NCBI GenBank assembly: GCA_026390075.1
Contig: JAPLGP010000059.1
Location: forward strand, 1 to 52,661
Origin: Campylobacterales bacterium
Lineage (GTDB): Bacteria > Campylobacterota > Campylobacteria > Campylobacterales > Sulfurimonadaceae
DNA length: 52,661 bases
Direction: 5' to 3'
The notes beneath the pieces are model-generated. The model did no database searches. It saw only the letters and a program-made list of their open reading frames with translations, and was not told the DNA's origin. This document shows, piece after piece, positions 1,644-52,496 of this stretch (position 1 is its first letter; each line of letters begins with the position of its first letter). The position numbers and the translations under genes are program-made.

Positions 1644-1805
1644 TTACTCTTTCAAATTCCTAAACTCTGTCAAATCAGCTGGAGTATGATTTTTCTCCAT
1701 ATATCCTTCAAGTTGTCCGTCTCTCTTAAATTTTTGATAAAAGGTGGAACGAGAAACAATTATGGCATGTGGAAAGATTATCTTTAGTTGTTTCCGTTTT
1801 AGAAC
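1644..1805 (-). pseudogene. Remnant of a possible helix-turn-helix protein
   Basis: A 54-codon open frame without a start codon ends at TAA 1644-1646 and contains SRSTFYQKFKRDGQ, which looks like a DNA-binding helix-turn-helix. The frame is closed upstream by TAG at 1806-1808, while a different frame upstream begins with ATG, so the gene may be frameshifted. A perfect copy of the 12-base word lies inside it at 1763-1774. The rest of the 1541-1904 interval shows no other gene. Confidence 0.3.
1763..1774 (-). repeat. TTCCACATGCCA word, perfect copy
   Basis: Reads TGGCATGTGGAA on the plus strand. It is the leftmost copy of the dispersed 12-base word discussed in the findings and lies in the remnant between the ATPase and the MASE1 gene. 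Confidence 0.9.
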
Positions 1806-3992: not shown

Positions 3993-4138
3993 GCGAGTGT
4001 TTCCTTGCTTTTAAGCCCTTGATATGAGAAGTGAAACTTACGAGCTTTTTCTTTTATAAACTCTTGCTTGGCATGTGGAAGTTTGGCAAAGAGTGTATTT
4101 TTTATGGAGTTGTTAAATATATTTGTATAAGAATTCAT
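3977..4138 (-). pseudogene. Short ORF, possible N-terminal gene fragment
   Basis: A 53-residue frame starts at ATG 4138 and contains LFAKLPHAKQEFIKEKARKF. It overlaps the start of the decayed alkylation repair gene in another frame and ends within it. It resembles the N-terminal part of a longer protein, possibly a radical SAM photoproduct lyase-like protein, but this is a guess. A perfect copy of the 12-base word lies at 4069-4080 and encodes part of LPHAK. Confidence 0.3.
4069..4080 (-). repeat. TTCCACATGCCA word, perfect copy
   Basis: Reads TGGCATGTGGAA on the plus strand, inside the short fragment ORF. It is the last copy before a stretch of about 5.4 kb without the word (4081-9511). Confidence 0.9.
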
Positions 4139-6218: not shown

Positions 6219-6637
6219 AATATTTAGTTCTATTGTTTTTTTTCTCATCGTTATTAGTTAGTTCTGAAACGGATAAAATAGAGTCCAAAATTATTATGAG
6301 TATGATTGATGCAGTGAGTAATCATAGGGTTTTTTCTGTTTACACGAACAGTCAAAAGTTGAAAGAGATATTACCTGCGCAAAAGATAGTTTTTGTAGAT
6401 GATTGTAGTGGTGCAGATCTTGCCATTTTAGAAAAATCTAAAATAGAAAAAAACTGTGCTAACATATCCATTATAACTCTAGAATATGATTTATTGAAAA
6501 AATATCCAAATAGTATAGGATCGTTTTTTTGGCAAAAAGGCAGACCAAATATCGTTTTTATAAAATCTAGATTGAAAAATCAAAATATAGTAATTGATAG
6601 TACATTCGATGAATTTATAGAAGAAAATATATGGTAA
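6215..6637 (+). CDS. Small exported protein, YfiR-like (DUF4154) by context
   Basis: The 140-residue protein starts with TTG at 6215, overlapping the receptor stop, and begins with a signal peptide MKYLVLLFFFSSLLVSS. The rest is a compact periplasmic domain with two cysteines near residues 69 and 81. The pattern of short beta-strands ending in GSFFWQKGRPNIVFIKSRL is reminiscent of YfiR, the periplasmic repressor of a diguanylate cyclase in Pseudomonas. It also overlaps the next gene, which encodes a membrane GGDEF-EAL protein. Family membership is inferred from size, export signal and neighbourhood rather than a decisive motif. Confidence 0.55.
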   Translation: MKYLVLLFFFSSLLVSSETDKIESKIIMSMIDAVSNHRVFSVYTNSQKLKEILPAQKIVFVDDCSGADLAILEKSKIEKNCANISIITLEYDLLKKYPNSIGSFFWQKGRPNIVFIKSRLKNQNIVIDSTFDEFIEENIW

Positions 6638-9365: not shown

Positions 9366-9710
9366 ATGACTTTAGGCAAATGTCCTTATTGCAGTGATGG
9401 ATTTATCGAAGCAAGAGATAAAGAAGTGCGTGGAAAAAAAGTAAAACTCTATGCTTGTTCTAATGCTTCGTGGAGAAGTGAAGATGGAGAAATGTTTGAA
9501 TTAACTAAAGATTCCACATGCCACTTTAAATTCTGGCAAAACTCTCTTGCAAAATATGGAAAGTGGCTCTCTTATAAAGAAGTAAGAGAACTGCTTGAGA
9601 AAGAAACCTTAGAAGTCGAGTTACTGAGTAAAAAATATGGTACAAAAATACACTACAATAAGTATATAACACTCAGTGAAGAGTATGGAGTGAGTGTTAT
9701 TTGGGATTAA
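9366..9710 (+). CDS. Small zinc-ribbon protein, topoisomerase C-terminal-like
   Basis: The 114-residue protein opens with a four-cysteine zinc ribbon (C6, C9, C31, C52) in the layout used by zinc fingers at the C-terminus of type IA topoisomerases. The following segment FKFWQNSLAKYGKWLSYKEVRELLEK resembles the small domain that comes after such ribbons. It is free-standing here, with no topoisomerase gene nearby. A nucleic-acid binding role is plausible but unproven. The ATG at 9366 follows an AGAGAAAAAG stretch. A perfect copy of the 12-base word encodes DSTCHF at 9512-9523, including one zinc cysteine. Confidence 0.7.
   Translation: MTLGKCPYCSDGFIEARDKEVRGKKVKLYACSNASWRSEDGEMFELTKDSTCHFKFWQNSLAKYGKWLSYKEVRELLEKETLEVELLSKKYGTKIHYNKYITLSEEYGVSVIWD
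9512..9523 (+). repeat. TTCCACATGCCA word, perfect copy
   Basis: Lies inside the zinc-ribbon gene, in a frame that uses TGC for C52. Confidence 0.9.
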
Positions 9711-12887: not shown

Positions 12888-12899
12888 TTCCACATGCCA
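12888..12899 (+). repeat. TTCCACATGCCA word, perfect copy
   Basis: Intergenic copy shortly after the rplQ hairpin. It is not part of that hairpin. Confidence 0.9.
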
Positions 12900-18347: not shown

Positions 18348-20267
18348 ATGAGTAATGTAATGCGTCAAAAAATGGCAAACACAATTAGGTTCTTAGCAGC
18401 AGATATGGTTCAAGCGGCAAATTCTGGACACCCAGGTGCACCAATGGGTTTGGCAGATATAGCAGTCGTTTTAAGTGAACACTTAAACCATAATCCAAAA
18501 AATCCCTCTTGGCTCAACCGTGACAGATTGGTATTTTCAGGCGGACATGCGACAGGACTTATTTACTCTCTCTACTATCTTTGGGGATATGGACTTGAAA
18601 TCAGTGATTTGAAAAACTTCCGTCAACTAGACTCTAAAACTCCAGGTCATCCAGAGTTTGGTCACACGGCAGGTATCGAGATTACGACTGGACCTTTAGG
18701 TCAAGGTATCGCAAATGCTGTTGGTTTTGCAATGGCTTCAAAATTTGTGGGTGCTCAAGTAAATTCTGAAATGGCAGCGCTTATAGACCATAAAGTGTAC
18801 TGTTTATGTGGCGATGGCGACTTGGAAGAGGGCATAAGCTATGAAGCGTGTTCCATCGCAGGACACAATAAGTTAGACAATTTAATCCTTATTTATGATT
18901 CAAACCGCATTACTATTGAAGGTTCAACAGATTTAAGTATAAGTGAAAATATCCGTGGAAGATTTGAGTCTCAGGGGTGGGATGTATTAGAGTGTGACGG
19001 TCATGATTTTAATGAAATTGACGCATCCATCACAACAGCAAAAGCGAACTCTAAACCAACCCTTATCATTGCAAATACGACTATTGCAAAAGGTGCTGGC
19101 AAATTAGAAGGTTCTCATCATGCACATGGTGCGCCTCTTGGAATGGATACTATTGCAGATGCGAAGACGGCATGTGGATTTGATGCTACAAAAACATTTC
19201 ATGTAGATGAAGATGTGTTAGTGCGTTTTAGATGTGCAATAGAAGAGGGCGATTTTTTAGAGAGAGAGTGGATTCACAGACAAAAAACGCTTCCATTGAT
19301 GGAGCAAAATGAGGCGCTTGATGCACTTCAAAATCCCGATTTTTCTCGTATTGCGTATCCAGTTTTTGATAAAGCAGATGCGACAAGAAACACAAACGGT
19401 AAAATCATGAACGCAATCGCAAAAGCTCTTCCAAGCTTTTTAGGCGGAAGTGCGGATTTGAGTCCATCGAACAAAACTGAGCTTGTCGATATGGGCGTCT
19501 ATCCAAAAGGGAGAAATATTTACTTCGGTATCCGTGAACATGCGATGGCTTCCATCGTAAATGCGATGGCTCTTTATGGTCCGCTTATGCCTTTTAGTGC
19601 GACATTTTTTGTTTTCTCAGATTATCTCAAACCAGCGGCTAGAATTGCAGCTTTGACTGGAATTCAACAGTTTTTCATTTGGACGCATGATAGCATCGGT
19701 GTGGGTGAAGATGGACCAACGCACCAACCAATTGAGCATTTAAGCCAATTCCGTGCATTGCCAAACTTTTATGTATGGAGACCAGCCGATGGTGCAGAAA
19801 ACATTGAAGCTTGGAAAACAGCACTGCAAATGCGTAAATCTCCATCTGCTTTTGTATGTTCAAGACAAAATCTTGCACTGCTTCCACATGCCGTAGTTGG
19901 CGAGGCTAAAAAAGGTGGATATTTACTTTCTCGTGATGAAAATGCAACGATAACGCTCATGGCTTCAGGAAGTGAAGTAGAACTCGCTCTTAAAGTAAAA
20001 GATGCACTGGGCGCAAAAGGAATAAAAGCAAATGTTGTTTCAGTTCCATGTTTTGACCTCTTCATAGAGCAAGAAAAATCGTACATCGATTCTATCATCA
20101 AAAGTGACACGAAAAAAGTAGCAATTGAAGCTGCAAGAGGTTTAGAATGGTACAGATTTGCTGATGAAGTTATCGGTATGGATACTTTTGGCGCATCAGC
20201 ACCAGCAGAAAAACTTTTTGAAAAATTTGGTTTTTCAGTAGAGAGTATTTTAGAAAAGATTCTTTAA
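18348..20267 (+). CDS. tkt: Transketolase
   Basis: Transketolase moves two-carbon units between sugar phosphates with thiamine diphosphate, in the pentose phosphate route and, in autotrophs, in carbon rearrangements. The 639-residue protein has ANSGHPGAPMGLAD near residue 25, the cofactor motif GDGDLEEG near 160, and FGIREHAMASIVNA in the pyrimidine domain. The ATG has an AAGGAAAA ribosome site. Two imperfect copies of the 12-base word lie inside (19168 and 19882), and a perfect inverted pair follows its stop. Confidence 0.96.
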   Translation: MSNVMRQKMANTIRFLAADMVQAANSGHPGAPMGLADIAVVLSEHLNHNPKNPSWLNRDRLVFSGGHATGLIYSLYYLWGYGLEISDLKNFRQLDSKTPGHPEFGHTAGIEITTGPLGQGIANAVGFAMASKFVGAQVNSEMAALIDHKVYCLCGDGDLEEGISYEACSIAGHNKLDNLILIYDSNRITIEGSTDLSISENIRGRFESQGWDVLECDGHDFNEIDASITTAKANSKPTLIIANTTIAKGAGKLEGSHHAHGAPLGMDTIADAKTACGFDATKTFHVDEDVLVRFRCAIEEGDFLEREWIHRQKTLPLMEQNEALDALQNPDFSRIAYPVFDKADATRNTNGKIMNAIAKALPSFLGGSADLSPSNKTELVDMGVYPKGRNIYFGIREHAMASIVNAMALYGPLMPFSATFFVFSDYLKPAARIAALTGIQQFFIWTHDSIGVGEDGPTHQPIEHLSQFRALPNFYVWRPADGAENIEAWKTALQMRKSPSAFVCSRQNLALLPHAVVGEAKKGGYLLSRDENATITLMASGSEVELALKVKDALGAKGIKANVVSVPCFDLFIEQEKSYIDSIIKSDTKKVAIEAARGLEWYRFADEVIGMDTFGASAPAEKLFEKFGFSVESILEKIL

Positions 20268-20275
20268 TATTTTTT

Positions 20276-20303
20276 ATTTCCACATGCCATGGCATGTGGA
20301 AAT
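20276..20303. terminator. Perfect palindrome made of two TTCCACATGCCA words
   Basis: One word at 20278-20289 is joined directly to its complement at 20290-20301, and one A-T and one further T-A pair extend it, giving 28 bases of perfect symmetry. It lies nine bases after the tkt stop and 15 bases before the end of the convergent TonB receptor gene, so it is well placed to end transcription from both sides. It has no classical U tract on either side apart from the T run at 20270-20275. Terminator function is inferred from position and from the analogous paired uptake sequences of Neisseria. Confidence 0.7.
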
Positions 20304-22531: not shown

Positions 22532-23522
22532 TCTCCACACCCTTCGCAAAATTCATAGTAACGCAGTGAAGTGAGCCGTGTTGGCGGACTAAAACAGAAC
22601 AATTCACGCCAACAATTTCTCTGCCCTCAAAAGTTTTTCTAAAAATATCTAAGGCTTCTTCGTCTTGAGAAACTCCATAAGTCGGGACAATCACTGCACC
22701 GTTTACGATAAGAAAGTTCGCATAAGTCGCTGGAAGTCGTTCATCATCATAAATCATTGCATCGGTCATTGGCAGGGCTACAAGTTTGAAACCGTGTGAT
22801 ATTTTTAGCTCTTGAAGCTCCTCTTCCATGAGTTTTAACTCTTTGTAATGCTCATCATTCGTATCTTCGCACTTCACATACATGATAGTTTTTTCATCAC
22901 AAAATCTTGCGAGTGTATCGATGTGTGAATCGGTGTCATCCCCCGCCAAATAGCCGTGATTTAAGTATAAAATTTCAGTTGCACCCAGATAAGTGGAGAG
23001 TTTTTGCGTGATTTGAATAGAGTCAAGCGTATGATTTCTATTTTTATTTAAAACGCATTCAGAAGTTGTGAGAACTACTCCCGCACCGTTGCTCTCAACG
23101 CCTCCTCCTTCTAAAATAAAGTCATAACTTTCCATCTTTTTTGAGTAGTGATTTGCGATGGCTTTGCTCATTTCATTGTCTAAATGTGCATCAAATTTTC
23201 CGCCCCAGCCAGTAAAAACAAAGTCAAGAAGTTTTACTTCGCCATCCTCTTCAACACATAAAACAGAGCTGTCTCGCGCCCAAGTATCGTTTGTTTGGTA
23301 CGCAACAAAGTATAAATTTTCGTTGCTTTCAAAACGGCTTTTTACACTTGCCACATCATCACAAACCACTAAACACTTCTGATATTTGATAATTGCCTCT
23401 ATAATATTTACGAAATTTTCCTGTGCCTCATCCAAATATTCCACCCAATCACTCTTGGCATGTGGAAAGATAATTTGTGTAAAACTTTGCTCCTCAAACT
23501 CTGCTATAAATCGTCTTTTCAT
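22524..23522 (-). CDS. Agmatine deiminase / peptidyl-arginine deiminase family
   Basis: The family hydrolyses agmatine to N-carbamoylputrescine and ammonia in polyamine synthesis. The 332-residue protein has the family motifs WARDSS, EGGGVESNG, HIDTLARF and, near the end, GSLHCVTMN with the catalytic cysteine at residue 320. I set the start at ATG 23522, which overlaps the stop of the toxin gene in an ATGA and lines up with MKRRFIAEFEEQ; a start 15 bases further upstream would lie inside the toxin gene. The N-terminal FPHAKSDW is encoded by a perfect copy of the 12-base word. Confidence 0.88.
   Translation of the reverse strand: MKRRFIAEFEEQSFTQIIFPHAKSDWVEYLDEAQENFVNIIEAIIKYQKCLVVCDDVASVKSRFESNENLYFVAYQTNDTWARDSSVLCVEEDGEVKLLDFVFTGWGGKFDAHLDNEMSKAIANHYSKKMESYDFILEGGGVESNGAGVVLTTSECVLNKNRNHTLDSIQITQKLSTYLGATEILYLNHGYLAGDDTDSHIDTLARFCDEKTIMYVKCEDTNDEHYKELKLMEEELQELKISHGFKLVALPMTDAMIYDDERLPATYANFLIVNGAVIVPTYGVSQDEEALDIFRKTFEGREIVGVNCSVLVRQHGSLHCVTMNFAKGVEII
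23456..23467 (-). repeat. TTCCACATGCCA word, perfect copy
   Basis: Inside the agmatine deiminase gene, in the sense direction of that gene, where it encodes FPHA. Confidence 0.9.
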
Positions 23523-25114: not shown

Positions 25115-26131
25115 ATGGCTAAAATAACTTTAAATAAAAATAATTTTTTTAATAATCTCGACATTATCGCTAAAGCTACCAAAAGTGTAGATAAAATTGC
25201 GGTGGTTCTTAAAGATAATGCGTATGGACATGGTTTGGTGCTTATGGCAACTATGGCAAAAGAGTATGGCGTGAAAAGGGCGGTTGTGCAGACTGAGGAT
25301 GAAGCGAAAGAAATCGAAGATTTTTTTGATTATATTTTGGCTCTCAATGCAATTCCACATGCCAAGAGCGATACAATTCGTTATACGATAAACGATTTAA
25401 ATTCAATAGTAAAATTTCCACATGCCACAAAAGTGGAACTCAAAGTGGATACGGGAATGCACCGCAATGGTGTTGCGATGGATGAACTTGAAAAAGCGTT
25501 TGTTAAGATAAAAGAGCAGGGGCTTATTTTGGAGGGAGTTTTTACGCATCATAGAAGTGCGGATGAACTCAGCAGTGAGTGGTTTTGGCAAAAAGAGAAC
25601 TTCAAAAAAGTCAAAGAAAAAGCGAAAATCTTGGCATGTGGATTTGGTTTTGGTGAACTACGATTTCATTCTTCAAACTCTGCTTCACTCTTTCGGCATG
25701 TGGAATTTGATGAAGATATGGCAAGAGTCGGGATTGCGGTGTATGGATGTATGGATCTTCCTCTTAGCATAAGTGTAGATGGCTTTAAGCCTGTTTTATC
25801 TCTTTATGCCAATAAAATATCTTCACGAGAACTCCAAAAAGGGGAGAAAGTAGGCTACGGCGGAACATACACGGCGGAGGAAAATTGTGTTGTGAGCAAC
25901 TACAACTTTGGGTATGGCGATGGATTTTTGAGAGGAAGCTCGAACAACTACATAACTCCACATGCCAAGAAATTAGTTGGTCGTATCTCGATGGACAATA
26001 GCTCCTTTTTGTCGGATGAAGAGGAAATTTTGATTTTTGATGATGCCCGTGAAATGGCAAAATCTGCAAAAACGATTAGTTACGAAGTTTTGACTTCTCT
26101 CAAACCTACAATCAAAAGAGAAATAGTTTAA
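25115..26131 (+). CDS. alr: Alanine racemase
   Basis: Alr makes D-alanine for peptidoglycan with pyridoxal phosphate. The cofactor lysine is K33 in VVLKDNAYGHG, and the second-subunit tyrosine lies in KVGYGGTY. At 338 residues it is slightly short for the family. Five copies of the 12-base word occur in this single gene, two perfect. The translated word gives PHAK, PHAT and similar peptides at variable positions. The gene converges with and overlaps by four bases the end of the lipoprotein gene. Confidence 0.95.
   Translation: MAKITLNKNNFFNNLDIIAKATKSVDKIAVVLKDNAYGHGLVLMATMAKEYGVKRAVVQTEDEAKEIEDFFDYILALNAIPHAKSDTIRYTINDLNSIVKFPHATKVELKVDTGMHRNGVAMDELEKAFVKIKEQGLILEGVFTHHRSADELSSEWFWQKENFKKVKEKAKILACGFGFGELRFHSSNSASLFRHVEFDEDMARVGIAVYGCMDLPLSISVDGFKPVLSLYANKISSRELQKGEKVGYGGTYTAEENCVVSNYNFGYGDGFLRGSSNNYITPHAKKLVGRISMDNSSFLSDEEEILIFDDAREMAKSAKTISYEVLTSLKPTIKREIV
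25353..25364 (+). repeat. TTCCACATGCCA word, perfect copy (alr, first of five)
   Basis: Encodes IPHAK in alr. Other copies in the gene: 25416 (perfect), 25632, 25694 and 25956 (one mismatch each). Confidence 0.9.
25416..25427 (+). repeat. TTCCACATGCCA word, perfect copy (alr, second of five)
   Basis: Encodes FPHAT in alr, 63 bases after the previous copy. Confidence 0.9.
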
Positions 26132-27142: not shown

Positions 27143-27348
27143 TACACTTTTCCTATACATTCATTTGAACAGTAATATTTGTTACCACTTAGAATGGCTT
27201 CATCAACTTGTGTATAAGTTCCACATGCCGAGCATTCCACCATTTCATTGACATCTGACCTGTCACTTTTTTTGAGCGGTTTCTTCTTAAAGAAGACGAA
27301 ATAAATTATCACAATAACAGCAATAATCAGTAAAATTTTAAGTACCAT
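27142..27348 (-). CDS. PP0621-type small membrane protein with zinc ribbon
   Basis: The 68-residue protein has one N-terminal membrane helix (residues 2-20) followed by a basic linker and a cysteine motif, CSACGTYT ... YYCSNEC, that could bind zinc or iron. PP0621-type proteins have this layout; function unknown. The start ATG 27348 has a GGAG ribosome site seven bases away. A one-mismatch copy of the 12-base word at 27219-27230 covers one of the cysteine codons. It follows rsmG after two bases. Confidence 0.7.
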   Translation of the reverse strand: MVLKILLIIAVIVIIYFVFFKKKPLKKSDRSDVNEMVECSACGTYTQVDEAILSGNKYYCSNECIGKV

Positions 27349-32609: not shown

Positions 32610-33373
32610 CGCTTTTTGACGCACTCATCCTTGGAACACTTGAAGGTCTAACAGAATTTTTACCTATTTCTAGCACGGGACACCTTATTTTAGCTTCGCA
32701 TATTTTAGGGCTAGAACAAACAGTTGCTCATAAAACTTTTGAAGTTGTTATTCAGCTTGGAAGTATTTTGGCAGTTCTGTTTTTGTTTGCACAAAGGCTT
32801 CTTACTAACAAAACGCTCTGGATTAAAATCACAGTTGCATTTTTACCCACAGCTATTTTTGGCTTTTTGTTTTATAAAACTATCAAGTCGCTTTTTGGGA
32901 TAGAAACTGTTTCTATCATGCTTGTTGTAGGCGGTTTTGTATTTCTGATATTAGAATATTTCAGAAGAAATCGTGATGAGAGCAAAGATAAAAGTGTAGA
33001 TGATTTGAGCATCAAAGAGTCTTTCATGATAGGGTTGTTTCAAAGTCTCTCTATGGTTCCAGGAACAAGTCGCTCAGGGGCTACAATGATAGGCGGACTT
33101 TTTGCAGGGTTATCTCGTAAAAGTGCGGCGGAATTCTCTTTTTTACTTGCAATTCCTACGATGTTTGCAGCAACGGCGTATGATTTATACAAAAATAGAG
33201 CAACGATGATAGTGGATGATTACACACTCTTGGCATGTGGATTTGTGACTGCTTTTGTGGTTGCATTTTTTACAGTCCAAGCCATGATGAAGTTTCTTAC
33301 AACGCATACATTTGTGGTTTTTGGGGTTTATAGAATTTTAGTCGGGCTTGTTTTTTGGTTTTTTGTAGTTTAA
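32606..33373 (+). CDS. uppP: Undecaprenyl-diphosphatase (BacA/UppP)
   Basis: UppP removes a phosphate from undecaprenyl diphosphate to recycle the lipid carrier of cell-wall synthesis, and its overproduction gives bacitracin resistance in other bacteria. The catalytic segments are [15 protein letters not shown] at residues 13-27 and [10 protein letters not shown] near 155. About eight membrane helices are seen in 255 residues. It is translationally coupled to argF and ends before an inverted pair of the 12-base word. Confidence 0.95.
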
Positions 33374-33413: not shown

Positions 33414-33444
33414 TTCCCACATGCCAAAGTTCGGCATGTGGAAT
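33414..33444. terminator. Inverted pair of TTCCACATGCCA-like words
   Basis: TCCCACATGCCA at 33415-33426 and CGGCATGTGGAA at 33432-33443, each one base from the perfect word, face each other across five bases, giving a stem of nine perfect pairs CCACATGCC/GGCATGTGG. They lie between the convergent ends of uppP and trpS, 41 and nine bases from the two stops. Bidirectional termination is inferred. Confidence 0.7.
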
Positions 33445-35974: not shown

Positions 35975-36075
35975 GTCATTGCGAGCGAAGCGAAGCAATC
36001 TTGGGTTTTAGAGATACTTTTTATATAAAAACTGTTCTTACACAAATTAGATTGCTTCGCTTCGCTCGCAATGAC
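35975..36075. repeat. Dispersed repeat, copy B: perfect 27-base inverted repeat
   Basis: The arm 35975-36001 (starts GTCATTGCGAGCG, ends GCAATCT) is perfectly complementary to 36049-36075, with 47 bases between. The arms share the sequence of copies A and C. It lies between hemJ and the convergent der gene. A small hairpin AGTCT/AGACT at 36105-36120 follows. No transposase is nearby. Structure suggests a miniature mobile element or palindromic repeat unit. Confidence 0.85.
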
Positions 36076-38352: not shown

Positions 38353-38404
38353 TTTAAATCCTTTGAAAAATTTTGAGAATGGTAGCATAATTTTCAATAA
38401 TGGA

Positions 38405-38410
38405 TATAAT
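38405..38410 (+). promoter_or_regulatory. -10 box seven bases before a phosphoribosyltransferase start
   Basis: TATAAT at 38405-38410 ends seven bases before ATG 38418, so the mRNA should start at or next to the ATG. An ATG at 38400 in the same frame would lie upstream of the promoter and is rejected. Confidence 0.6.
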
Positions 38411-38417
38411 TCACTTT

Positions 38418-38861
38418 ATGAAATATTATGCATATGAAAATTTTAAAAATGATACAAATCATTTAATCAATCAAGTAAAAGGTTTCCAACCAGAGGCAAT
38501 CGTAGCAATTGCTAGAGGTGGATTAACAGTTGCACATGCCATGGCTGAGGGCTTAGATATTAGAAATGTTCAAACGATTCGAACAGAACTTTATGACAAA
38601 ACAACAAAACGCTCAGAGATTACAATATTTGGCGCGTGTACATTTGAAGCAGTTCAAAGGGTTCTAGTCATTGATGATATCGCCGATAGCGGAGATACTC
38701 TGAGCGTTGTTATGAACTTCTTGGCATGTGGGTTTGGTGAGATTGAGTTTAAATCAGCTACGCTTTTTTATAAAAAAACATCGGTTTATGAGCCTCACTT
38801 TTGGATTAATGAGGCGGATGATTGGATAGACTTTTTTTGGGAGAGAGATTTTAAGAACTAA
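38418..38861 (+). CDS. Phosphoribosyltransferase (COG2236-like)
   Basis: The 147-residue protein has the PRPP-binding loop VLVIDDIADSGDT at residues 82-94 and AIVAIARGGL near 30, typical of purine phosphoribosyltransferases such as hypoxanthine or xanthine salvage enzymes. The last 49 codons (38707-38861) recur 2.75 kb downstream as a separate fragment on the other side of the restriction island. The word-like TTGGCATGTGGG at 38721 lies at the start of the duplicated part. Exact substrate unknown. Confidence 0.87.
   Translation: MKYYAYENFKNDTNHLINQVKGFQPEAIVAIARGGLTVAHAMAEGLDIRNVQTIRTELYDKTTKRSEITIFGACTFEAVQRVLVIDDIADSGDTLSVVMNFLACGFGEIEFKSATLFYKKTSVYEPHFWINEADDWIDFFWERDFKN
38710..38858 (+). 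repeat. Left copy of about 149-base direct repeat flanking the R-M island
   Basis: Matches 41462-41610 at an offset of 2752 with about a dozen differences, and is identical over some 65 bases in the middle. It is the true 3' end of the phosphoribosyltransferase gene. Confidence 0.9.
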
Positions 38862-38866
38862 ATTTC

Positions 38867-39979
38867 TTATTTTCCCGATTTCATTCTATTATGCAATTTA
38901 CATAACATTTGACAATTATTTGCTTCAGTTTTTCCGCCCTCATGCCAAGGTGTTATATGGTCTGCTTCCATTTCGTTTAGCTCATAATGAGTTTTTTCAC
39001 TTTTATCTTTTTCGCATACGGGGCAAATCCCTTTTTGTCTTTCATAAGTTTCTCTTTTTTGTTTGTCAGTAAAAGCACGAATATTTAGGTACTTTTCATT
39101 TTTCGTTAGAACATATTGGTAAACTCCAGACTTTTTGGTTACATCTTCATCTTGCATTAATTTGGCTATTTCTTCTTCTAATTTTTTAGAATCAAACTCT
39201 TGATTTTTAAATTCATTGTATAGTAAACCAAAATCGACACCTTTCATCTCTTTGCGATATTTTGGGAAAAGTGCCTTAACCCAATTTATAACACTTTGAA
39301 AATAGAGCCACAATTCATTTGCATTTGGTTTATGTTGATTATCTGCCATATATTGTTCGATTTTCCCATCATTTATCCACGATATAGCAGTTTCTAAATA
39401 ATCTTGACGGATTGGAGAGCCAGTCATATAATCACTTCCTATGCCATAAGCAGGGCAACCTGATTTGCTAAAATATTTTTTTGCATCTGTGAGCCAAGTT
39501 CCCGTATAAATAGCATTTCTTAGCTCTTGATCGGTTAGTTTTTCCCCTGCTATATTTATCGTTTTAAACCAATCTAATTTTTCTTTATCATTTCCTTCGC
39601 AAAAATAAACCATCAGCTTATAATCAAGTATCTGCTCTTGCTCATCTTTGGTTAGAGTGTGAAAATACTGTGGATTTGACTGATAAATTAAAGAAAAAAA
39701 TCCCTTTACATATTCGCAAATACTTATAGTTCGTTGTTGTCCGTCTAAAACCTCATAAGTGTCATCTTCATTTTTGACCCAATACATTACATTTAAAGGA
39801 AAATTTTTAAAAACTGTTTCTATGACAGAATCTCTTTGCTTATCTTTATAGACAAATTCCCTTTGATATTTTGGTCGGATATTGAGGTTTCCACCAAACC
39901 CTATAACACCTTCTTCATCACTGTTTATATATCCACTTACAACTTCTTTGATTGATATTTCTTTGAGTTCTATTTTCAT
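38867..39979 (-). CDS. DUF262 and HNH nuclease, probable restriction enzyme
   Basis: The N-terminal half is a DUF262 domain with DGQQRT at residues 79-84, as in GmrSD-type nucleases, where this motif belongs to a nucleotide-driven part. The C-terminal end is an HNH nuclease with C319-C322 and C356-C360 zinc pairs and the catalytic ADHI segment at 339-342. It ends six bases from the phosphoribosyltransferase stop on the other strand and lies 14 bases after the methylase gene, so it is probably the restriction partner. Recognition site unknown. Confidence 0.82.
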   Translation of the reverse strand: MKIELKEISIKEVVSGYINSDEEGVIGFGGNLNIRPKYQREFVYKDKQRDSVIETVFKNFPLNVMYWVKNEDDTYEVLDGQQRTISICEYVKGFFSLIYQSNPQYFHTLTKDEQEQILDYKLMVYFCEGNDKEKLDWFKTINIAGEKLTDQELRNAIYTGTWLTDAKKYFSKSGCPAYGIGSDYMTGSPIRQDYLETAISWINDGKIEQYMADNQHKPNANELWLYFQSVINWVKALFPKYRKEMKGVDFGLLYNEFKNQEFDSKKLEEEIAKLMQDEDVTKKSGVYQYVLTKNEKYLNIRAFTDKQKRETYERQKGICPVCEKDKSEKTHYELNEMEADHITPWHEGGKTEANNCQMLCKLHNRMKSGK

Positions 39980-39993
39980 AAATAAATTTTCCT

Positions 39994-41079
39994 TTATAGT
40001 TTTTTGTTTTTGATTAAAAATCTCGTATAAAGCACTTTTAAATAACCATTGATATTGTCTGCAGTGTAATAAACTCCGTCTGGTTTTTTATCCAAAAGTA
40101 TTGTTGAGCTAGTATTTACTTTGCTTCCATTAGTGACCGAGCCATCTTTGTTAATTTGCTTCGGATTTATATATTTTTTTGTTGGAGTTGCTTCAAATTC
40201 ATCTCTACCAGATGTCATTCCTACAATATCAAATTGGTCTGGATTGTATTTAGCCAAAAATGTGATTGGCACTCCCATTATTCCATTATAATCCATTGGT
40301 ATATCTTTGGTTATACACACTTCTATTGCATCATAATTATCATATCTTGGGTATTCGGTTTCGTTATATTTTTTGTAAAGTATTAAATCTTCATGTCTTT
40401 TTTTAAATTCCAGATTTGTAAGCCATGTTACACCTGAAACTCTAATCATTCCATCTTTATGGTCACTTGCGGTTGCATAATCTTCGTAGTGTTTGTTAAT
40501 AAAGTGTGCAGCACCACCGTGAAATCCGTATCCTAACCATAATTTATTATCTTTTATGAGCTTGAATATCTCTTTGTATTTTGTTGCATTTTGATGACCA
40601 ATAATTATAAATTTTTTACCATATTCATCTAATTGAGCTACATAATCTCTAAATAATGAAAAAGGTGGATTAGTCACCACAATATCAGCTTCTTCTAGAA
40701 TTTTAATACATTCATTGCTTCTAAAATCCCCGTTTTGTTCTAATGGTGTTTTGAATTTGTCCAAAGCATCTATCTTTCCATCGCCGTTTAAATCCTCTTT
40801 GAGTTCAAGCTTGTAGGATGGCTTTTCTTTTTCAAAATGGGTGGTGATAAGTTTTTTCAATCCAAGATGTTCAAAATTTAATGCAAAATATCTAAAAAAG
40901 TTACTCTCTTGCGGGTCATCACAATTGCAAAATACGACCTTGCCTTTGAAATGGTCTTGATAATGTTTTAGCTCCCTTTCTATGTCTGGCAATTGTGTGT
41001 AAAATTCATCATTTTTCTCTTTGTTTGCTTTTCGTAAATTACTATTTGAAGCTTTTTTAGGTTGATTATCTTTTGGCAT
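39994..41079 (-). CDS. Adenine-specific DNA methyltransferase, EcoRI family
   Basis: The 361-residue protein matches the EcoRI methylase family: DEFYTQLPDIERELKHY near the start, CNCDDPQESNFFRYF, and the NPPF motif at 137-140, which is the catalytic motif of N6-adenine methylases. An EF-hand-like segment (DLNGDGKIDALDKF) lies at 97-110. The family does not fix the site: GAATTC occurs several times in this window. The gene is divergent from a small helix-turn-helix gene, as in controller-type systems. Confidence 0.88.
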   Translation of the reverse strand: MPKDNQPKKASNSNLRKANKEKNDEFYTQLPDIERELKHYQDHFKGKVVFCNCDDPQESNFFRYFALNFEHLGLKKLITTHFEKEKPSYKLELKEDLNGDGKIDALDKFKTPLEQNGDFRSNECIKILEEADIVVTNPPFSLFRDYVAQLDEYGKKFIIIGHQNATKYKEIFKLIKDNKLWLGYGFHGGAAHFINKHYEDYATASDHKDGMIRVSGVTWLTNLEFKKRHEDLILYKKYNETEYPRYDNYDAIEVCITKDIPMDYNGIMGVPITFLAKYNPDQFDIVGMTSGRDEFEATPTKKYINPKQINKDGSVTNGSKVNTSSTILLDKKPDGVYYTADNINGYLKVLYTRFLIKNKKL

Positions 41080-41114
41080 ATTTCCACACTTTTAATGATT
41101 TTTGTTTAACATTT

Positions 41115-41181
41115 CAACATTCTATATTATTAATGTTGAATATAACAACTAAATTATTATTAAGTGTAGAATATAACAACT
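41115..41181. promoter_or_regulatory. Repeats between methylase and HTH gene, candidate operators
   Basis: CAACATT/AATGTTG form an inverted repeat (41115-41138). GTTGAATATAACAACT at 41135-41150 recurs as GTAGAATATAACAACT at 41166-41181. The two start 31 bases apart, three helix turns, so two bound dimers would lie on one DNA face. This arrangement fits control of the restriction-modification genes by the neighbouring HTH protein. Confidence 0.55.
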
Positions 41182-41234
41182 GTTGTTTTGTAAAGTGCCT
41201 ATATGTAGCCTACGATAAAAAAAGTGGGAACGAA

Positions 41235-41438
41235 ATGACTCAAAGAGATATAGCGGGGTATTTGAATATTGATAGAACAACACTATATAATTGGAAAAAG
41301 AGTAAACCAAACCTTTACAAAACTTTGATGTTAGGGCTTATGGTTGATGAAATAATCGAAAAAAATGAAAAAAGTTTGAATGAGCTCAAAGAACTCAAAG
41401 AGAGTTTTTTACAACTTAAAACAACTCAAAAACAGTAA
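41235..41438 (+). CDS. Small HTH protein, possible controller of the R-M genes
   Basis: The 67-residue protein opens with MTQRDIAGYLNIDRTTLYNWKK, a clear helix-turn-helix, and ends in a charged coiled coil (NEKSLNELKELKESFLQLK). It resembles small transcriptional controllers of restriction-modification systems. I start at ATG 41235; the open frame upstream is not protein-like. The methylase is transcribed in the other direction from the same region with paired repeats. Confidence 0.65.
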   Translation: MTQRDIAGYLNIDRTTLYNWKKSKPNLYKTLMLGLMVDEIIEKNEKSLNELKELKESFLQLKTTQKQ

Positions 41439-41463
41439 AGAAGAAAAGCGGGGCAAGATTATT

Positions 41464-41616
41464 ATGAATTTCTTGGCATGTGGATTTACTAAGATTGAGT
41501 TTAAATCAGCTACGCTTTTTTATAAAAAAACATCGGTTTATGAGCCTCACTTTTGGATAAATGAGGCAGAGGACTGGATAGATTTTTTTTGGGAAAGTGA
41601 TTTTAAAGAAGTATAA
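41464..41616 (+). pseudogene. Duplicated 3' end of the phosphoribosyltransferase gene
   Basis: The frame from ATG 41464 encodes a 50-residue tail (MNFLACGFTKIEFKSATLF ... WESDF) that differs at about five positions from the end of the gene at 38418. It lacks the catalytic loop, so it cannot work as an enzyme. It is the right-hand copy of the direct repeat around the restriction island. A one-mismatch word is at 41474. Confidence 0.85.
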
Positions 41617-41619
41617 CTT

Positions 41620-41991
41620 TTAGTGCCCAGCATGTTTTTTTGTAAAATCTGTTTCATAAATATAGGTTGCTATCGCCCTTAAAGTCTCTTTATCAAAGCC
41701 TAGTTTTGGCATAAGTCCATGTTTTTTGACAGAATCAAGCATTAAAGAACTCTCTTCTTTTGGGTCTTCTACCCAAATTGACATGTACTCTATAAAATCT
41801 TCTTTTATTGGAAATGCCATCATGTACTGTTGTTTAAAATCAACAACAGACGGAGCAGAGACTGTTTTTGTTTCAAAATGACATGTGATACAGTTTCCGC
41901 TAAACAACAAAGAACTATTTTCATTTGCCTGTACATTGAAGGCTAACACAAAAAAAGTAACTATTGCTGTTGCTTTTTTACTTAACACCAT
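41620..41991 (-). CDS. Small c-type cytochrome
   Basis: The 123-residue protein has a signal peptide and one haem site CITCH at residues 34-38, with methionines in the C-terminal half (GLMPKLGF) that could be the second ligand. It is a periplasmic electron carrier of unknown partner. The neighbour at 41994 ends three bases away on the same strand, so they could share a transcript. Confidence 0.88.
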   Translation of the reverse strand: MVLSKKATAIVTFFVLAFNVQANENSSLLFSGNCITCHFETKTVSAPSVVDFKQQYMMAFPIKEDFIEYMSIWVEDPKEESSLMLDSVKKHGLMPKLGFDKETLRAIATYIYETDFTKKHAGH

Positions 41992-42808: not shown

Positions 42809-43696
42809 ATGAAACAGACAACTAAGCTTAATCTCGGCGTAAAATATATGCTCATCTCCTCTTTTTTATTTGCACTTATGGCTGCTTTTGCAAAACTTTC
42901 AAGTGAACATATGAGTTCACTTGAAGTTGTATTTTTTAGAAATATTTTTGGTGTCGTCATTATTGGTGTTGCTATTTGGAAATCTCCTCTAAAAAATATA
43001 GGTGGCAAACCATTTTTGCTTTTTTTTAGAGGATTTATGGGTTTTGTTTCGCTTCTTGCCTATTTTTATAATGTAGCGCATATTAGCCTTGGCGATGCTG
43101 CAACTTATTCAAAAACAGCACCTATCTTTACAGCCATTTTTGCTTGGGCTTTTTTAAAAGAGAAACTGACATTAAGCTCTTGGTTGGCAGTATTTGTCGG
43201 CTTTGGTGGGATACTTTTAATCACTCAGCCTAGCGGATTAGGATTTAGTAAATATGATATTTTAGGCATCTTTAGCGGAATCGGTGCGGCACTCGCTTAC
43301 ACTTCTGTAAGAGAGCTAAAAAATTATTATGACACGAGAGCGATTGTTATGTCGTTTATGCTTATTGGAACGGTTGCACCACTCTTTTTGCTGTTTGCTT
43401 CAGAATATTTCCACATGCCAGAACTTGATTTTATGTTGGGTGAATTTGTCATGCCAAAGGGAATTATCTGGTTTTATGTGAGTGGAATGGGGATTTTGGC
43501 GACTCTTTCTCAATACTACATGACAAAAGCGTACGGCGAAACTAAAGCAGGAATCGTCGGAGCGGTAAGTTACACAAATATAGTTTTTGCGATTATGGTT
43601 GGTCTCTTTTTAGGTGACGCCCTTCCGAGTTTTATCACGGCATGTGGAATTTGTTTGATAGTTTTTGCGGGGATAATCGTAGCAAGGCAGAAGTGA
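42809..43696 (+). CDS. EamA-family transporter of the DMT superfamily
   Basis: The 295-residue protein begins MKQTTKLNLGVKYMLISSFLF and has about ten membrane helices in two EamA halves. These carriers export or import small metabolites; the substrate cannot be read from sequence. A perfect word copy encodes YFHMPEL at 43409, and a near copy at 43638. Transcription is probably leaderless. Confidence 0.88.
   Translation: MKQTTKLNLGVKYMLISSFLFALMAAFAKLSSEHMSSLEVVFFRNIFGVVIIGVAIWKSPLKNIGGKPFLLFFRGFMGFVSLLAYFYNVAHISLGDAATYSKTAPIFTAIFAWAFLKEKLTLSSWLAVFVGFGGILLITQPSGLGFSKYDILGIFSGIGAALAYTSVRELKNYYDTRAIVMSFMLIGTVAPLFLLFASEYFHMPELDFMLGEFVMPKGIIWFYVSGMGILATLSQYYMTKAYGETKAGIVGAVSYTNIVFAIMVGLFLGDALPSFITACGICLIVFAGIIVARQK
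43409..43420 (+). repeat. TTCCACATGCCA word, perfect copy
   Basis: Inside the EamA transporter gene, encoding FHMP. Confidence 0.9.
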
Positions 43697-45967: not shown

Positions 45968-48003
45968 TGATAAAAACACCGTTATTTTTTATATTTTTAT
46001 TTTTCTCGACACTGCTTTTTTCTTCCAACACTTGTGTCGATTGTCATAAAGAGACACAAAAAATTCGTGACGAATCTTCAGGGATGATGAAAGCTATTTT
46101 AGAACTTTCACAAAAAGCAGGGCATGTGGGAAATGATTGTATCGTTTGCCATGGGGGTAACCCTGAAGCTACAAAAAAAGAAAAAGCACATTCTGGAACT
46201 CCTCAGTATTTTAAAAGTAACAAAGGTCCAAAAGAATTTTATTCATTTCCCTCAAATCACGAAGTAAATAAAAATACCTGTGGAATATGTCATGAAAATC
46301 AAGTTTCTTCGCAAAAAAATTCACTGATGATGAGTAACCAAGAAACAATTGGGGAGACATTAAAAACTTTTGGAGTTAAAAGTGACACTCCCTATGGCAT
46401 AGGAATGCATAAAACAGAGAATCCTCATGCAAGAGTTGGAACGGATGCGTATCAAGAGTATATGCAAAAACTTCAGATGCAAGAGCCACAAGTCTTTACT
46501 AAAGAGATAAACAAACTTCCATCTCCTGCCACTGTAAAAGAAGTTCAAAAAGAGCCATCGTTGGCAGCTTTTGCATATTTGAATCAAGAAAATAGTTCTA
46601 AAAATATGGGATGTGCATCTTGTCATTTACCAAAAACAAAAGATGGACACTTGGTTCACTCTATTCAATCTTCAAGAGATACTTCAGTAAAAGTGGATGG
46701 CAAAGAGTACTCAGGAGTTTCAGTTGAGACATGTGCAACTTGTCATAATCGTGAAAAAAGTATAGCTACTTCCTATCAAGGACTTTTAGAAAAAGAGAGT
46801 CCATCTTCACAAAAATATATCCACATGCAAGAAGATATCCATTTTAAAAAAGGGATGTTGTGTCAAGATTGTCACACTTCAAATGATTTACATGGAGATG
46901 GTTTTTTAAGTGGTGCGACAACAACTGCTGTTGAGGTTGAGTGTCAAGACTGTCATGGAACAACTAACTCTTATCCATGGGAGTTGCCACTTGGATATAG
47001 CGATGAGTTCAATACAACTGTTGTAAAGGGTAAAGCAAGAGGCATCGCAACAACGGTGGCAGAGTATCTCAAACAAGGAAGTGTTGAAGAAGCGAAGGAA
47101 GGATATCTTCTAAGTGCAAGAGGAAATCCACTTCCACATGCCATAAAAGAGGGCAATAAAATTTCTTTGCACCTAGCGAATGGTAAAAATATAGAACTTT
47201 CCCCTTTGAAAGAATTAAAAAAAGAGAAAAAGTTGTCTCAAAAAGCACTTCTTGCAATGGATGAGATAAACGCGCACACAAAAAAGATGGAGTGTTACAC
47301 ATGCCATGCATCTTGGGTGAGACAAGATTATGATACACATCTCAAAATGGACTATTCTGATAAAAGTTTAGCTACGCCAAAAGTGATGCAAAGTAAAGCT
47401 TTCATGCGCTGGGAAGAGCCGACACTTATGCAAAATGCAGAGGGAAGAATTAGCCCTAGTGTGCCAAAATATTTGAGTGAGATAACAGTAATAGGCAAAG
47501 ATTTTAGTGTAGATATTCAAACTCCACATGCCAAAGAAATGTTGGCAATTCAACCTCACACAATGCAAAAAGAAGCAAGAAGTTGTGAGAGTTGCCACAC
47601 AACTCTCAAAGCAATGGATATGAAAATAAGCGGATTGCGAGTAAGTCAAGCCCCAGAAAAACCTTTAGATGTAAACACAACACAAACAGATGCGTTTAAA
47701 TTTTTAGCACCACTCTCACAAGTGCAACGCGATAAACTTGACCGTAGTGGCATGTGTATTTCTTGTCATCAAGATATTCCAAAAGGAAACTTGGCTATTT
47801 CTGCGATGAGCCATATGGCTAAAATGGCAGATATAAATATAGACAATGACATGCATAAAACAATCGTAAACAAAGCTTTAAAGATTGGAGTTTGGGCTCA
47901 AGTTCTAGGTGGAATTTTGATTGCAATTCTTCTGTTATTAGGAATATATATTACTTTTTTTAAAAAACAGCCGAGAAATCCAAGAAATGAAGGGTGGAAA
48001 TAG
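45967..48003 (+). CDS. Decahaem c-type cytochrome with C-terminal membrane anchor
   Basis: The 678-residue protein has a signal peptide and ten CxxCH sites: CVDCH, CIVCH, CGICH, CASCH, CATCH, CQDCH twice, CYTCH, CESCH and CISCH. A membrane helix near 645-665 (VLGGILIAILLLLGIYITFF) anchors it. This places it in periplasmic electron transfer, perhaps as a terminal or intermediate reductase; octahaem enzymes of the hydroxylamine or tetrathionate type are related in outline, but the identity is not settled. It overlaps nusB, an unusual partner. Confidence 0.85.
   Translation: MIKTPLFFIFLFFSTLLFSSNTCVDCHKETQKIRDESSGMMKAILELSQKAGHVGNDCIVCHGGNPEATKKEKAHSGTPQYFKSNKGPKEFYSFPSNHEVNKNTCGICHENQVSSQKNSLMMSNQETIGETLKTFGVKSDTPYGIGMHKTENPHARVGTDAYQEYMQKLQMQEPQVFTKEINKLPSPATVKEVQKEPSLAAFAYLNQENSSKNMGCASCHLPKTKDGHLVHSIQSSRDTSVKVDGKEYSGVSVETCATCHNREKSIATSYQGLLEKESPSSQKYIHMQEDIHFKKGMLCQDCHTSNDLHGDGFLSGATTTAVEVECQDCHGTTNSYPWELPLGYSDEFNTTVVKGKARGIATTVAEYLKQGSVEEAKEGYLLSARGNPLPHAIKEGNKISLHLANGKNIELSPLKELKKEKKLSQKALLAMDEINAHTKKMECYTCHASWVRQDYDTHLKMDYSDKSLATPKVMQSKAFMRWEEPTLMQNAEGRISPSVPKYLSEITVIGKDFSVDIQTPHAKEMLAIQPHTMQKEARSCESCHTTLKAMDMKISGLRVSQAPEKPLDVNTTQTDAFKFLAPLSQVQRDKLDRSGMCISCHQDIPKGNLAISAMSHMAKMADINIDNDMHKTIVNKALKIGVWAQVLGGILIAILLLLGIYITFFKKQPRNPRNEGWK
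47132..47143 (+). repeat. TTCCACATGCCA word, perfect copy
   Basis: Inside the decahaem cytochrome gene, encoding LPHA. Near copies at 47295 (covering a haem CxxCH codon group) and 47522. Confidence 0.9.
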
Positions 48004-50699: not shown

Positions 50700-52496
50700 A
50701 TGAATTTAACTAAAGAGCAAGAACTCAAGTTTAAAAAGTTAGGCATCCAGTCATGGAGCGAACTTGCTCTACTCATTCCACAGAGTTATGAAGATTTTAG
50801 GCTTCATGATAAACTTCAAATCCACATGCCACAACTCATCGATGCAACTGTTGAATCCGTGTATCGTTCGCCAAATTCCATTCAAATAACTTTTTTTGCT
50901 CACAACTTTGGATACTCCATCACGGGCGTTATTTTTCGTCCAAAACCTTATATGTTGCATCAGTTTAAGGTTGGAGAGAAAAATTACTACTATGGTTTAA
51001 TTGAATGTAAAATGGGGCAATGCACTCTGAATATGCCTAAAAAAATAACTACAATCGGTGCAATAATTCCAAAATATAAAACAGCTCTGAGGAGCGATGT
51101 CATGTATCGTTTTGTTCAAAGCAATTTAACAAAAGAGAATTTAAAAAGTGAAGGCTTAAGTGAAAAAGTGATAGATGAGGTTTTAAAACTTCATTTTCCC
51201 ACAGAAGAAATTTTGCAACTTCAAGAGTTGTCCATTGAAGCTGTGAATGCATTAAAGCATGTAGAACTTTTTGTTTATATGAAACTTTTAGCAGGAAAAA
51301 GAAGATATTTCGATGGCATGGCATGTGGAAATAATAGTTACAAAGATTGGGCTTCCACACTTCCTTTTACACTGACAAATGAACAAACAAATGCTATTGA
51401 AGATATAAAAACCGACCTATCAAAAAGCGTTGCAGCAAAAAGAATGATAGTCGGCGATGTAGGGTGTGGAAAAACAATGGTTATTTTGGCTTCGGCAGTT
51501 ATGATGTTGCCTCACCGCTCTATCCTTATGGCACCGACTACAATTTTGGCAAATCAGCTTTTTGAAGAGGCTCAAAAGTTTATTCCAAATGCTAAGATTA
51601 TTTTAGTGACAAATAAAACTAAAAAAATAAATTTGGATGCCTTTGATTTTATCATAGGCACACATGCCCTTTTATGTAGAGAACTTCCACATGCCGCACT
51701 TGTTATGGTGGATGAGCAACATCGCTTTGGAACCCTTCAAAGAAATATGCTAGAGAAACTGGTGAGCAGTGGCGAAAAAAAGCCCCATTTTTTGCAGTTT
51801 TCAGCCACTCCGATACCAAGAACTCAGGCTATGATAGAAACAGCACACATCGATGTGAGTTTGATTACAACCACACCCTTTGAAAAAGATATAACAAGCA
51901 AAGTGATTCACAAAAGCGACTTTAAAGATTTACTTAAACATATAAAAAATGAAGTTGCTAAAAATAATCAAGTGCTTCTTGTCTATCCGCTTGTTGAGCA
52001 AAGTGAAGTAATAGAGTACCAAAGTATCGAAGAAGCGCGTGGATATTGGGAAAAGAGTTTTGAAAATGTTTATGTGACGCATGGAGGCGATAAAGAAAAA
52101 GAGGAAGTACTTTTAGAATTTCGTGAGAAAGGAAATGTTTTGATTGCGACAACGGTTGTAGAAGTCGGTATCTCGTTGCCACGACTTAGCACGGTTGTGA
52201 TAGTTGGTGCTGAGAGATTAGGGCTTTCAACGCTTCATCAGCTACGAGGAAGAGTAAGTAGAACAGGGCTAAAAGGGTTCTGTTTTTTATACACAAATCA
52301 AAATAATTCAAAAAGACTTGATGAATTTGTACACACTACAAGTGGTTTTGACATAGCAAATATGGATTTAAAATACAGAAAAAGCGGTGATTTACTCAAA
52401 GGGACAAATCAAAGTGGAAGTCAGTTTAAGTGGGTGGACTTGGCGGAAGATGCAGAGACAGTTAAAAAGGTAAAAGAGGAATTAAAGATTATGTAA
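50700..52496 (+). CDS. recG: ATP-dependent DNA helicase RecG
   Basis: RecG reverses stalled replication forks and processes branched DNA. The 598-residue protein has an N-terminal OB-like wedge region, Walker A VGDVGCGKT near residue 258, the DEQH box in MVDEQHRFGTLQR and the later helicase motifs ATTVVEVG and QLRGRVSRTG. It is about 100 residues shorter than in E. coli, as usual in this group. It holds three word copies: 50820 and 51685 (one mismatch each) and 51319 (perfect). Confidence 0.95.
   Translation: MNLTKEQELKFKKLGIQSWSELALLIPQSYEDFRLHDKLQIHMPQLIDATVESVYRSPNSIQITFFAHNFGYSITGVIFRPKPYMLHQFKVGEKNYYYGLIECKMGQCTLNMPKKITTIGAIIPKYKTALRSDVMYRFVQSNLTKENLKSEGLSEKVIDEVLKLHFPTEEILQLQELSIEAVNALKHVELFVYMKLLAGKRRYFDGMACGNNSYKDWASTLPFTLTNEQTNAIEDIKTDLSKSVAAKRMIVGDVGCGKTMVILASAVMMLPHRSILMAPTTILANQLFEEAQKFIPNAKIILVTNKTKKINLDAFDFIIGTHALLCRELPHAALVMVDEQHRFGTLQRNMLEKLVSSGEKKPHFLQFSATPIPRTQAMIETAHIDVSLITTTPFEKDITSKVIHKSDFKDLLKHIKNEVAKNNQVLLVYPLVEQSEVIEYQSIEEARGYWEKSFENVYVTHGGDKEKEEVLLEFREKGNVLIATTVVEVGISLPRLSTVVIVGAERLGLSTLHQLRGRVSRTGLKGFCFLYTNQNNSKRLDEFVHTTSGFDIANMDLKYRKSGDLLKGTNQSGSQFKWVDLAEDAETVKKVKEELKIM
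51319..51330 (-). repeat. TTCCACATGCCA word, perfect copy
   Basis: Reads TGGCATGTGGAA on the plus strand inside recG, encoding MACGN. Confidence 0.9.

Follow-up and report, generated by a model that had tools for sequence, protein, structure and literature searches.

Integrating elements can give the gene that they enter a new 3′ end, as e14 and phage 21 do in icd, and restriction-modification genes of Helicobacter pylori can reportedly be inserted with a long duplication of their target, an observation said to go back to Nobusato et al. in 2000. The locus described here lies in a stretch of 52,661 nucleotides (the window), contig C55 (JAPLGP010000059.1) of a draft Campylobacterales genome (GCA_026390075.1; 2,403,259 bases in 61 contigs). 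It consists of a phosphoribosyltransferase gene (PRT), a restriction-modification island and a second copy of the PRT 3′ end, with a short word, abundant throughout the genome, near the start of both copies. The proximal tail copy, which ends the intact gene, is called P and the distal one D; the genome of the window is G000, and its relatives and their loci are labelled G and L with a number. We infer that the host genus is Sulfurimonas.

Self-specific DNA uptake guided by short words is credited just to Neisseriaceae and Pasteurellaceae in the pertinent passage of a 2025 paper (PMC12616744). In Neisseriaceae, the DNA uptake sequences (DUS) come in eight dialects, and the 10-mer is present about 1900 times in Neisseria meningitidis and Neisseria gonorrhoeae, according to a section of another paper (PMC3630211). 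Among the matches listed in our literature search, mostly papers outside subscription, none reports such a word in Campylobacterota, and the listed papers in which the word itself occurs appear from their titles to be unrelated. We consider it probable that two things hold jointly, namely that a Sulfurimonas clade carries an uptake-like word and that the island was imported, together with the P tail, from a relative. Somewhat more cautiously, we lean towards the view that the word belongs to a third independent DNA-uptake-sequence system, that of Sulfurimonas, which would comprise at least two clade-following dialects (GGCATGTGGA and TACATGTAGA) and a pilus receptor and would deliver restriction-modification islands.

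The duplication of the PRT 3′ end claimed in an earlier note on this DNA is real. The repeat finder returned the two tail copies as one direct pair of 148 nt (91% identity), 135 of the 148 bases matching in a direct count, and this pair is the longest repeat between positions 36000 and 44000, the next having 66 nt and 73% identity. The copies differ at 13 positions in the 144-nt in-frame part, in line with the dozen or so differences given in that note. Only eight of the 40 bases upstream of D match the PRT body, and the junction is therefore sharp. D (50 amino acids) has no Pfam match. We rejected the idea that D is a separate conserved gene, since a PRT match was found in 92 of 99 genomes, one in each except G000 and the distant G090, which have two.

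The relatives compared at this locus, all of other species, show a single-copy empty site. Their usual gene order is LPP20 lipoprotein, PRT, cytochrome c (in many of them, not all), TerB/DnaJ and EamA, with other genes interspersed in some. The nuclease, methylase and helix-turn-helix (HTH) genes of the island are absent from all 29 relatives' PRT loci, whose flanks were examined up to 1.5 kb. The relative closest in PRT is G056 (78% protein identity; 76% identity to G000 over 23,337 aligned bases); there, only a few bases separate the single PRT end from the cytochrome gene, a place that D takes in the window. The island is thus an insertion, as had been supposed, and the single PRT 3′ end of its island-free relatives is what an insertion predicts.

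Decayed second pieces of the PRT 3′ end are also present in G047 (L012) and G017 (L021), between PRT and cytochrome c, where D sits in the window; they follow an insert of some 70 nt that the two genomes share and that is unlike the window's island. The PRT end was therefore entered more than once. Other second matches in a DNA search with D across the 135 genomes of the genus were short, and a repeat check over 57 PRT loci returned any repeat in four (three genomes), the fourth (L011 of G032) being a weak 29-nt match within the gene body. A general hot spot for cargo at the PRT 3′ end was considered and rejected: in 14 genomes the open reading frames (ORFs) behind PRT, where there are any, resemble ordinary chromosomal genes by eye. 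In L078 (G155), the PRT frame looks broken in the tail, and the next PRT piece follows directly downstream in another frame.

The two tails differ in a way that points to separate histories. Over 48 codons, 12 are changed between P and D, eight synonymously and four nonsynonymously. At the synonymous differences, D has the codon of G056 in eight of eight cases and P in none, and D agrees with G137 in seven of eight; at the nonsynonymous ones, P has the residue of G056 in three of four, codon 113 matching in neither copy. The D residues K, E and S occur in 6, 6 and 2 of 51 relatives' rows, as compared with 16, 37 and 40 for the corresponding residues of P. A Fisher test of lineage by change type, polarised on G056, gave 0.006. 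When the comparison was widened to the full set of 48 genomes whose PRT locus was retrieved, synonymous sites favoured D in 27, P in nine and neither in 12, and residues favoured P in 37 and D in four. The synonymous score of D to P is 7 to 0 in G137, 5 to 2 in G131 and 4 to 2 in G129, with ties in G116, G127 and G172. From this pattern, D looks like the resident tail, decaying since it was parted from the gene body, and P is presumed to be the tail of an immigrant ortholog that remained under constraint elsewhere, in a diverged relative. The earlier suggestion that one copy came in from a related strain agrees with this reading of P.

One possibility is a plain duplication upon insertion, followed by drift of both copies in place. 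It would account for the common start and length of the copies and for relatives such as G138 and G172 that favour neither of them. However, eight of the 12 changed codons are synonymous, whereas 1.8-2.6 synonymous changes are expected for a freely drifting copy; none of 20000 simulations reached eight at kappa 1, and the P values were 0.0006 at kappa 2 and 0.0015 at kappa 4. Moreover, relative to G056, the synonymous changes lie on P and the unusual residues on D, so that we regard this scenario as highly unlikely. Nor do the two copies point to a common target, being split at eight synonymous codons with respect to G056 and at seven with respect to G137; neither copy is favoured by G138, G172 or G116, and a common origin could have been masked by a later replacement.

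Such a replacement is part of a second scenario, in which the island was inserted with a long target duplication (149 bp) in the Helicobacter style and the proximal end was later overwritten with a relative's allele by homologous recombination. One clean 148-bp direct repeat does flank the restriction-modification set, and in G047 and G017 a further, decayed tail piece occupies the corresponding position behind a different short insert. In addition, the middle of the repeat contains a run of 67 identical nucleotides (P = 0.0025 under a uniform model and 0.017 with site weights), which may reflect, as this scenario would have it, a later exchange between P and D. Its cost is the second event needed to produce the codon split between P and D, and we think it rather unlikely on balance. 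The Helicobacter-type duplication proposed in the earlier note thus finds support in the single-copy empty site but fails, on its own, to explain the different ancestry of the copies. Given that difference, homology-guided import, or duplication combined with replacement, fits better than a long target duplication alone.

The island itself measures about 2.6 kb and holds, between P and D, the nuclease, methylase and small HTH genes read from the sequence before, the first two now backed by PADLOC and Pfam matches. The nuclease spans the full PADLOC REase_II profile PDLC03418 (1-370 to 1-372 of 372) and adjoins the methylase, which matches the MTase_II profile PDLC03297 over 8-300 of 361 amino acids; the two form a predicted type II restriction-modification pair, a common recognition site being assumed. 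The small HTH gene is likely their controller. No further ORF of more than 100 amino acids lies between P and D, which excludes an integrase or transposase of usual size, and no integrase or recombinase, as expected of an integrase-driven island, is found among the island genes. The best 80 of 383 nuclease homologues, with up to 88% identity, are distributed over Campylobacterota, Bacteroidota, Patescibacteria, Proteobacteria, Clostridia and Nanoarchaeota; of these 80 loci, 76 also hold a homologue of the methylase and seven one of the HTH protein. A Sulfuricurvum genome has the nearest of these nucleases (nuclease 88%, methylase 80%, HTH 60%). Matches are also present in 138 plasmid records (43 covering at least 80% of the query, best identity 64%) and 36 phage records (four with such coverage, best 65%). 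Judged by its homologues, the island is a roaming set of predicted type II restriction-modification genes.

We also asked whether tail duplication is a habit of this restriction family, and rejected the idea, as no duplication like that of P and D was found at the five other islands compared, whose limits are approximate and one of which (L062) has short flanks. At L053, several repeats of 37-70 nt occur on both sides of the island. The sets of L053 (G111; 4517-6980) and L060 (G112) are possibly mosaic: their HTH proteins are 93-95% identical to that of the window, the nuclease 78% (G111) and the methylase just 58-66%. A lone C-terminal nuclease fragment, 63-69% identical, lies in L055 (G158; 6644-6796), apart from the complete set of that genome. 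A search of solved structures returned nothing useful.

The earlier note had taken a word near the start of each copy as a hint of natural transformation, and the genome makes far more of this word than that note could. TTGGCATGTGG lies at 38721 and 41473, 14 bases inside each tail copy, and its exact count in the window is 10, as compared with 0.01 expected. Among all 10-mers of the window, GGCATGTGGA is the most frequent, its copies being divided 12 to 13 between the two strands. It occurs 1302 times in the 2.4-Mb genome (663 + 639, about 540 per Mb), the reversed word once. In a sample of 355,519 bases (the window plus 20 stretches, some with N), it is again the commonest 10-mer, with 194 copies. 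Its consensus as a logo is [CT]TTGGCATGTGGAA; the core CATGTG (word positions 3-8) hardly varies, each single change accounting for 0-2 copies as against 194, and the flanks hold little signal beyond about -2 to +13. Among the 194 words, 134 lie in ORFs of at least 100 amino acids, evenly on both strands (69/65), and 60 outside, which corresponds to 0.43 per kb within such ORFs and 1.53 per kb outside them, small genes counting as outside.

The word is also kept between species. Among the 14 of its 25 window copies that align to G056, 11 are identical, compared with a background of 8.9% for all aligned 10-mers (binomial P = 8e-10); the alignment was made by blastn, which favours conserved stretches for words and background alike. 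In PRT, the word spells L-A-C-G. It is present there in six word-rich relatives (G056, G131, G129, G137, G116 and G127) and absent from the word-poorer G138, G172, G171, G036 and G035 and from word-free rows, in an alignment of 58 rows that excludes G117, G111, G045, G149, G166, G132 and G041. The lack of words in the island is uninformative, about 1.4 being expected in 2.6 kb.

A dispersed repeat family of the REP or MITE type is an extremely unlikely source of the word. Inverted pairs do occur, 13 inverted neighbours within 30 nt being found among 217 sites of the 9-base core where 1.4 are expected and where 2000 random placements gave at most seven. However, the flanks are nearly uninformative beyond about 15 bases, and many copies are single and intragenic. 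The window also contains six copies of CTCGCAATGAC, a dispersed repeat family of the CGCAATGAC / TCATTGCGA type that is also present in samples of G041.

Several other words of genome-wide occurrence are known, among them Chi, KOPS and HIP1. The Sulfurimonas word could be one of this kind, either an oriented site of Chi or KOPS type, a HIP1-like word, a methylation target or a regulator site, as over-representation alone is no proof of uptake. An oriented site fits poorly with the finding that, in most of the sampled contigs that have several copies, the word points both ways (L176, with five of five on one strand, is an exception). GGCATGTGGA is, in addition, non-palindromic, restricted in distribution, present in genes on both strands and kept between species, and we consider this whole group of alternatives unlikely, even though the second word, TACATGTAGA, has the near-palindromic core that a HIP1 or regulator site would have.

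The distribution of GGCATGTGGA is narrow. At least 31 copies are found in 19 of the 135 genus genomes, from 1302 in G000, 1298 in G117, 887 in G116, 859 in G056, 840 in G137, 758 in G111 and 721 in G127 down to 31 in G035; the remaining 116 hold at most 13. Outside the genus, none of the 370 genomes in a sample of 398 from the order exceeds 11 copies. An rpoB tree was built from 70 chosen sequences, without G137, G129, G166 and G132; 12 of its 15 genomes with at least 31 words fall into one group (support 0.82) that also holds G043 (13 copies). G134 has two different rpoB genes (L292, L315) at different places in this tree and may be a mixed bin.

G055 and G032 have hardly any GGCATGTGGA, and the top 9-mers in their 100-kb samples derive from TACATGTAGA. 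This second word reaches at least 117 copies in 12 of the 135 genus genomes (515 in G006, 506 in G055, 498 in G032; samples L220-L224 and L235-L239 from these and others), as compared with two in G000 and at most 20 for the reversed control. The 14 genomes with at least 140 copies of GGCATGTGGA hold at most 11 of TACATGTAGA, while G171 has both (36 and 88). The two words have CATGT-GA in common, as dialects would, and the near-palindromic core of TACATGTAGA leaves other roles possible. No comparably strong word was seen in samples of G012, G138 and G041, and that of G161 has some repeated words with up to 22 copies per 100 kb.

Parts of the machinery that uptake would require are predicted in most of the genus. 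ComEC is matched in 123 of the 135 genomes, G000 included, and pilin signals are present in 133, eight of them in G000, which also has DprA and five pilus or secretion ATPases above cut-off. These predicted genes would allow competence in G000, but are too common to demonstrate it. Taken together, the word and the competence genes make transformation by a pilus machine that prefers kin DNA the natural reading, and the word, which has several genomic features of one, is best filed as a candidate DNA uptake sequence of a new lineage.

It is thus tempting to suggest the following order of events. The word would most likely mark kin DNA for uptake by a transformation machine of the type IV pilus kind. 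DNA of a related species, in which the nuclease, methylase and HTH genes were set directly behind a PRT whose own end carried the word, would most likely have been taken up and have paired on the left with the resident PRT by homology. On the right, the illegitimate join would lie 14 bases before the word, at about codon 103 of the resident PRT, which would now end in P, its own tail D being stranded and decaying behind the island.

Several observations sit uneasily with this import by transformation. The donor of P was not found, the best relative, G131, matching P at 124 of 144 bases (D was the query in the genus-wide DNA search). In overall identity, most relatives are about as close to P as to D, and G138 (2/3) and G172 (2/2) favour neither tail although they are nearer than G056 in rpoB. 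The word-carrying G131, G149 and G036 lie outside the main rpoB group, G131 and G149 with partial rpoB genes. As for the machinery, no ComEC match was obtained in the word-carrying G172 (99% complete) and G129, pilins are present with or without the word, no gene stood out as the receptor, and many of 14 control genomes, including that of Escherichia coli, are likewise matched in the searches for ComEC and DprA. The main rival, in which a duplication came first and the proximal tail was replaced afterwards, could have produced the same arrangement. Finally, P and D look of different ancestry in a draft of 61 contigs, as would also be the case in an assembly chimera of two strains joined at the right-hand junction (41458/41459); we consider this very unlikely, as the window is free of N and both words and synteny with G056 are present on either side of the island. 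The features of the locus are collected in Table 1.

Table 1. Features of the PRT locus and positions of the uptake-like word in the window
Feature	Position	Strand	Evidence or remark
PRT, intact; 3′ end is the presumed immigrant tail	38400..38861	+	Pribosyltran PF00156 8e-17; gene order of relatives
P tail, presumed immigrant ortholog, still constrained	38707..38861 (repeat 38707-38854)	+	repeat, codon pattern
Uptake-like word in P, GGCATGTGGG (9 of 10)	38723..38732	+	
Restriction endonuclease, GmrSD_N/DUF262 + C-terminal HNH	38867..39979	-	PADLOC REase_II 2.8e-145; PF03235 1.4e-20; PF01844 1.1e-7
DNA adenine methyltransferase, EcoRI type	39994..41079	-	EcoRI_methylase PF13651 4.2e-128; PADLOC MTase_II 3.4e-114
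Small HTH protein gene, divergent from methylase	~41235..41438	+	HTH matches below Pfam cut-offs; homologue in 7/80 nuclease loci
D tail, presumed native PRT 3′ end, severed from gene body, decaying	41459..41616 (repeat 41459-41606)	+	cytochrome c adjacency as in G056, codon pattern, no body-like DNA upstream
Uptake-like word in D, GGCATGTGGA	41475..41484	+	identical in G056
Cytochrome c-like gene, native right neighbour	41620..41991	-	PF14495 6e-4 (below cut-off); synteny
Uptake-like word	1764..1773	+	
Uptake-like word	4070..4079	+	
Uptake-like word	9513..9522	-	
Uptake-like word	12889..12898	-	
Uptake-like word	19169..19178	+	
Uptake-like word	19883..19892	-	
Two uptake-like words, inverted pair	20279..20300	-/+	20279-20288 (-), 20291-20300 (+)
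Uptake-like word	23457..23466	+	identical in G056
Uptake-like word	25354..25363	-	identical in G056
Uptake-like word	25417..25426	-	identical in G056
Uptake-like word	25633..25642	+	not kept in G056
Uptake-like word	25695..25704	+	not kept in G056
Uptake-like word	25957..25966	-	identical in G056
Uptake-like word	27220..27229	-	identical in G056
Uptake-like word	33232..33241	+	
Inverted pair	33417..33442	-/+	9-base core at 33417 (-), full word 33433-33442 (+)
Uptake-like word	43410..43419	-	identical in G056
Uptake-like word	43639..43648	+	identical in G056
Uptake-like word	47133..47142	-	not kept in G056
Uptake-like word	47523..47532	-	
Uptake-like word	50821..50830	-	identical in G056
Uptake-like word	51320..51329	+	identical in G056
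Uptake-like word	51686..51695	-	identical in G056

If true, a third unrelated case, found among environmental bacteria, would show how uptake-word systems arise and switch words, and the 135 genus genomes, with word-free relatives as controls, offer material for studying such systems. An uptake word, if it is one, could also offer a way to transform Sulfurimonas, and the import proposed here would account for the exchange of a housekeeping gene's end by a restriction island that lacks an integrase.

In comparison with known systems, the Sulfurimonas word resembles the DUS of Neisseriaceae and the uptake signal sequences of Pasteurellaceae in several respects. A short word is present in hundreds to more than 1000 copies, in both orientations, scattered within and between genes; it has a sharp consensus of 10-13 bases with an almost invariant core; it forms inverted pairs that are terminator-like by arrangement; a variant that may be a dialect exists in related species, and predicted genes for pilus, ComEC and DprA, common ones in themselves, are present. 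Unlike those systems, this candidate is another word (GGCATGTGGA) in another phylum (Campylobacterota). The island, for its part, recalls the PADLOC REase_II/MTase_II sets in its DUF262/HNH nuclease with a methylase of the EcoRI family, and differs from most such loci in its additional divergent HTH gene (seven of the 80 loci from the best 80 of 383). As reportedly in H. pylori, a type II set is flanked by a direct repeat of the target gene of more than 100 bp, whereas here the two repeat copies look of different ancestry. Similar to e14 and phage 21 in icd, the element seems to give the gene a new 3′ end and to displace the native one behind itself, but no integrase is among its genes, and the homology appears to be that of an ordinary ortholog from a relative.

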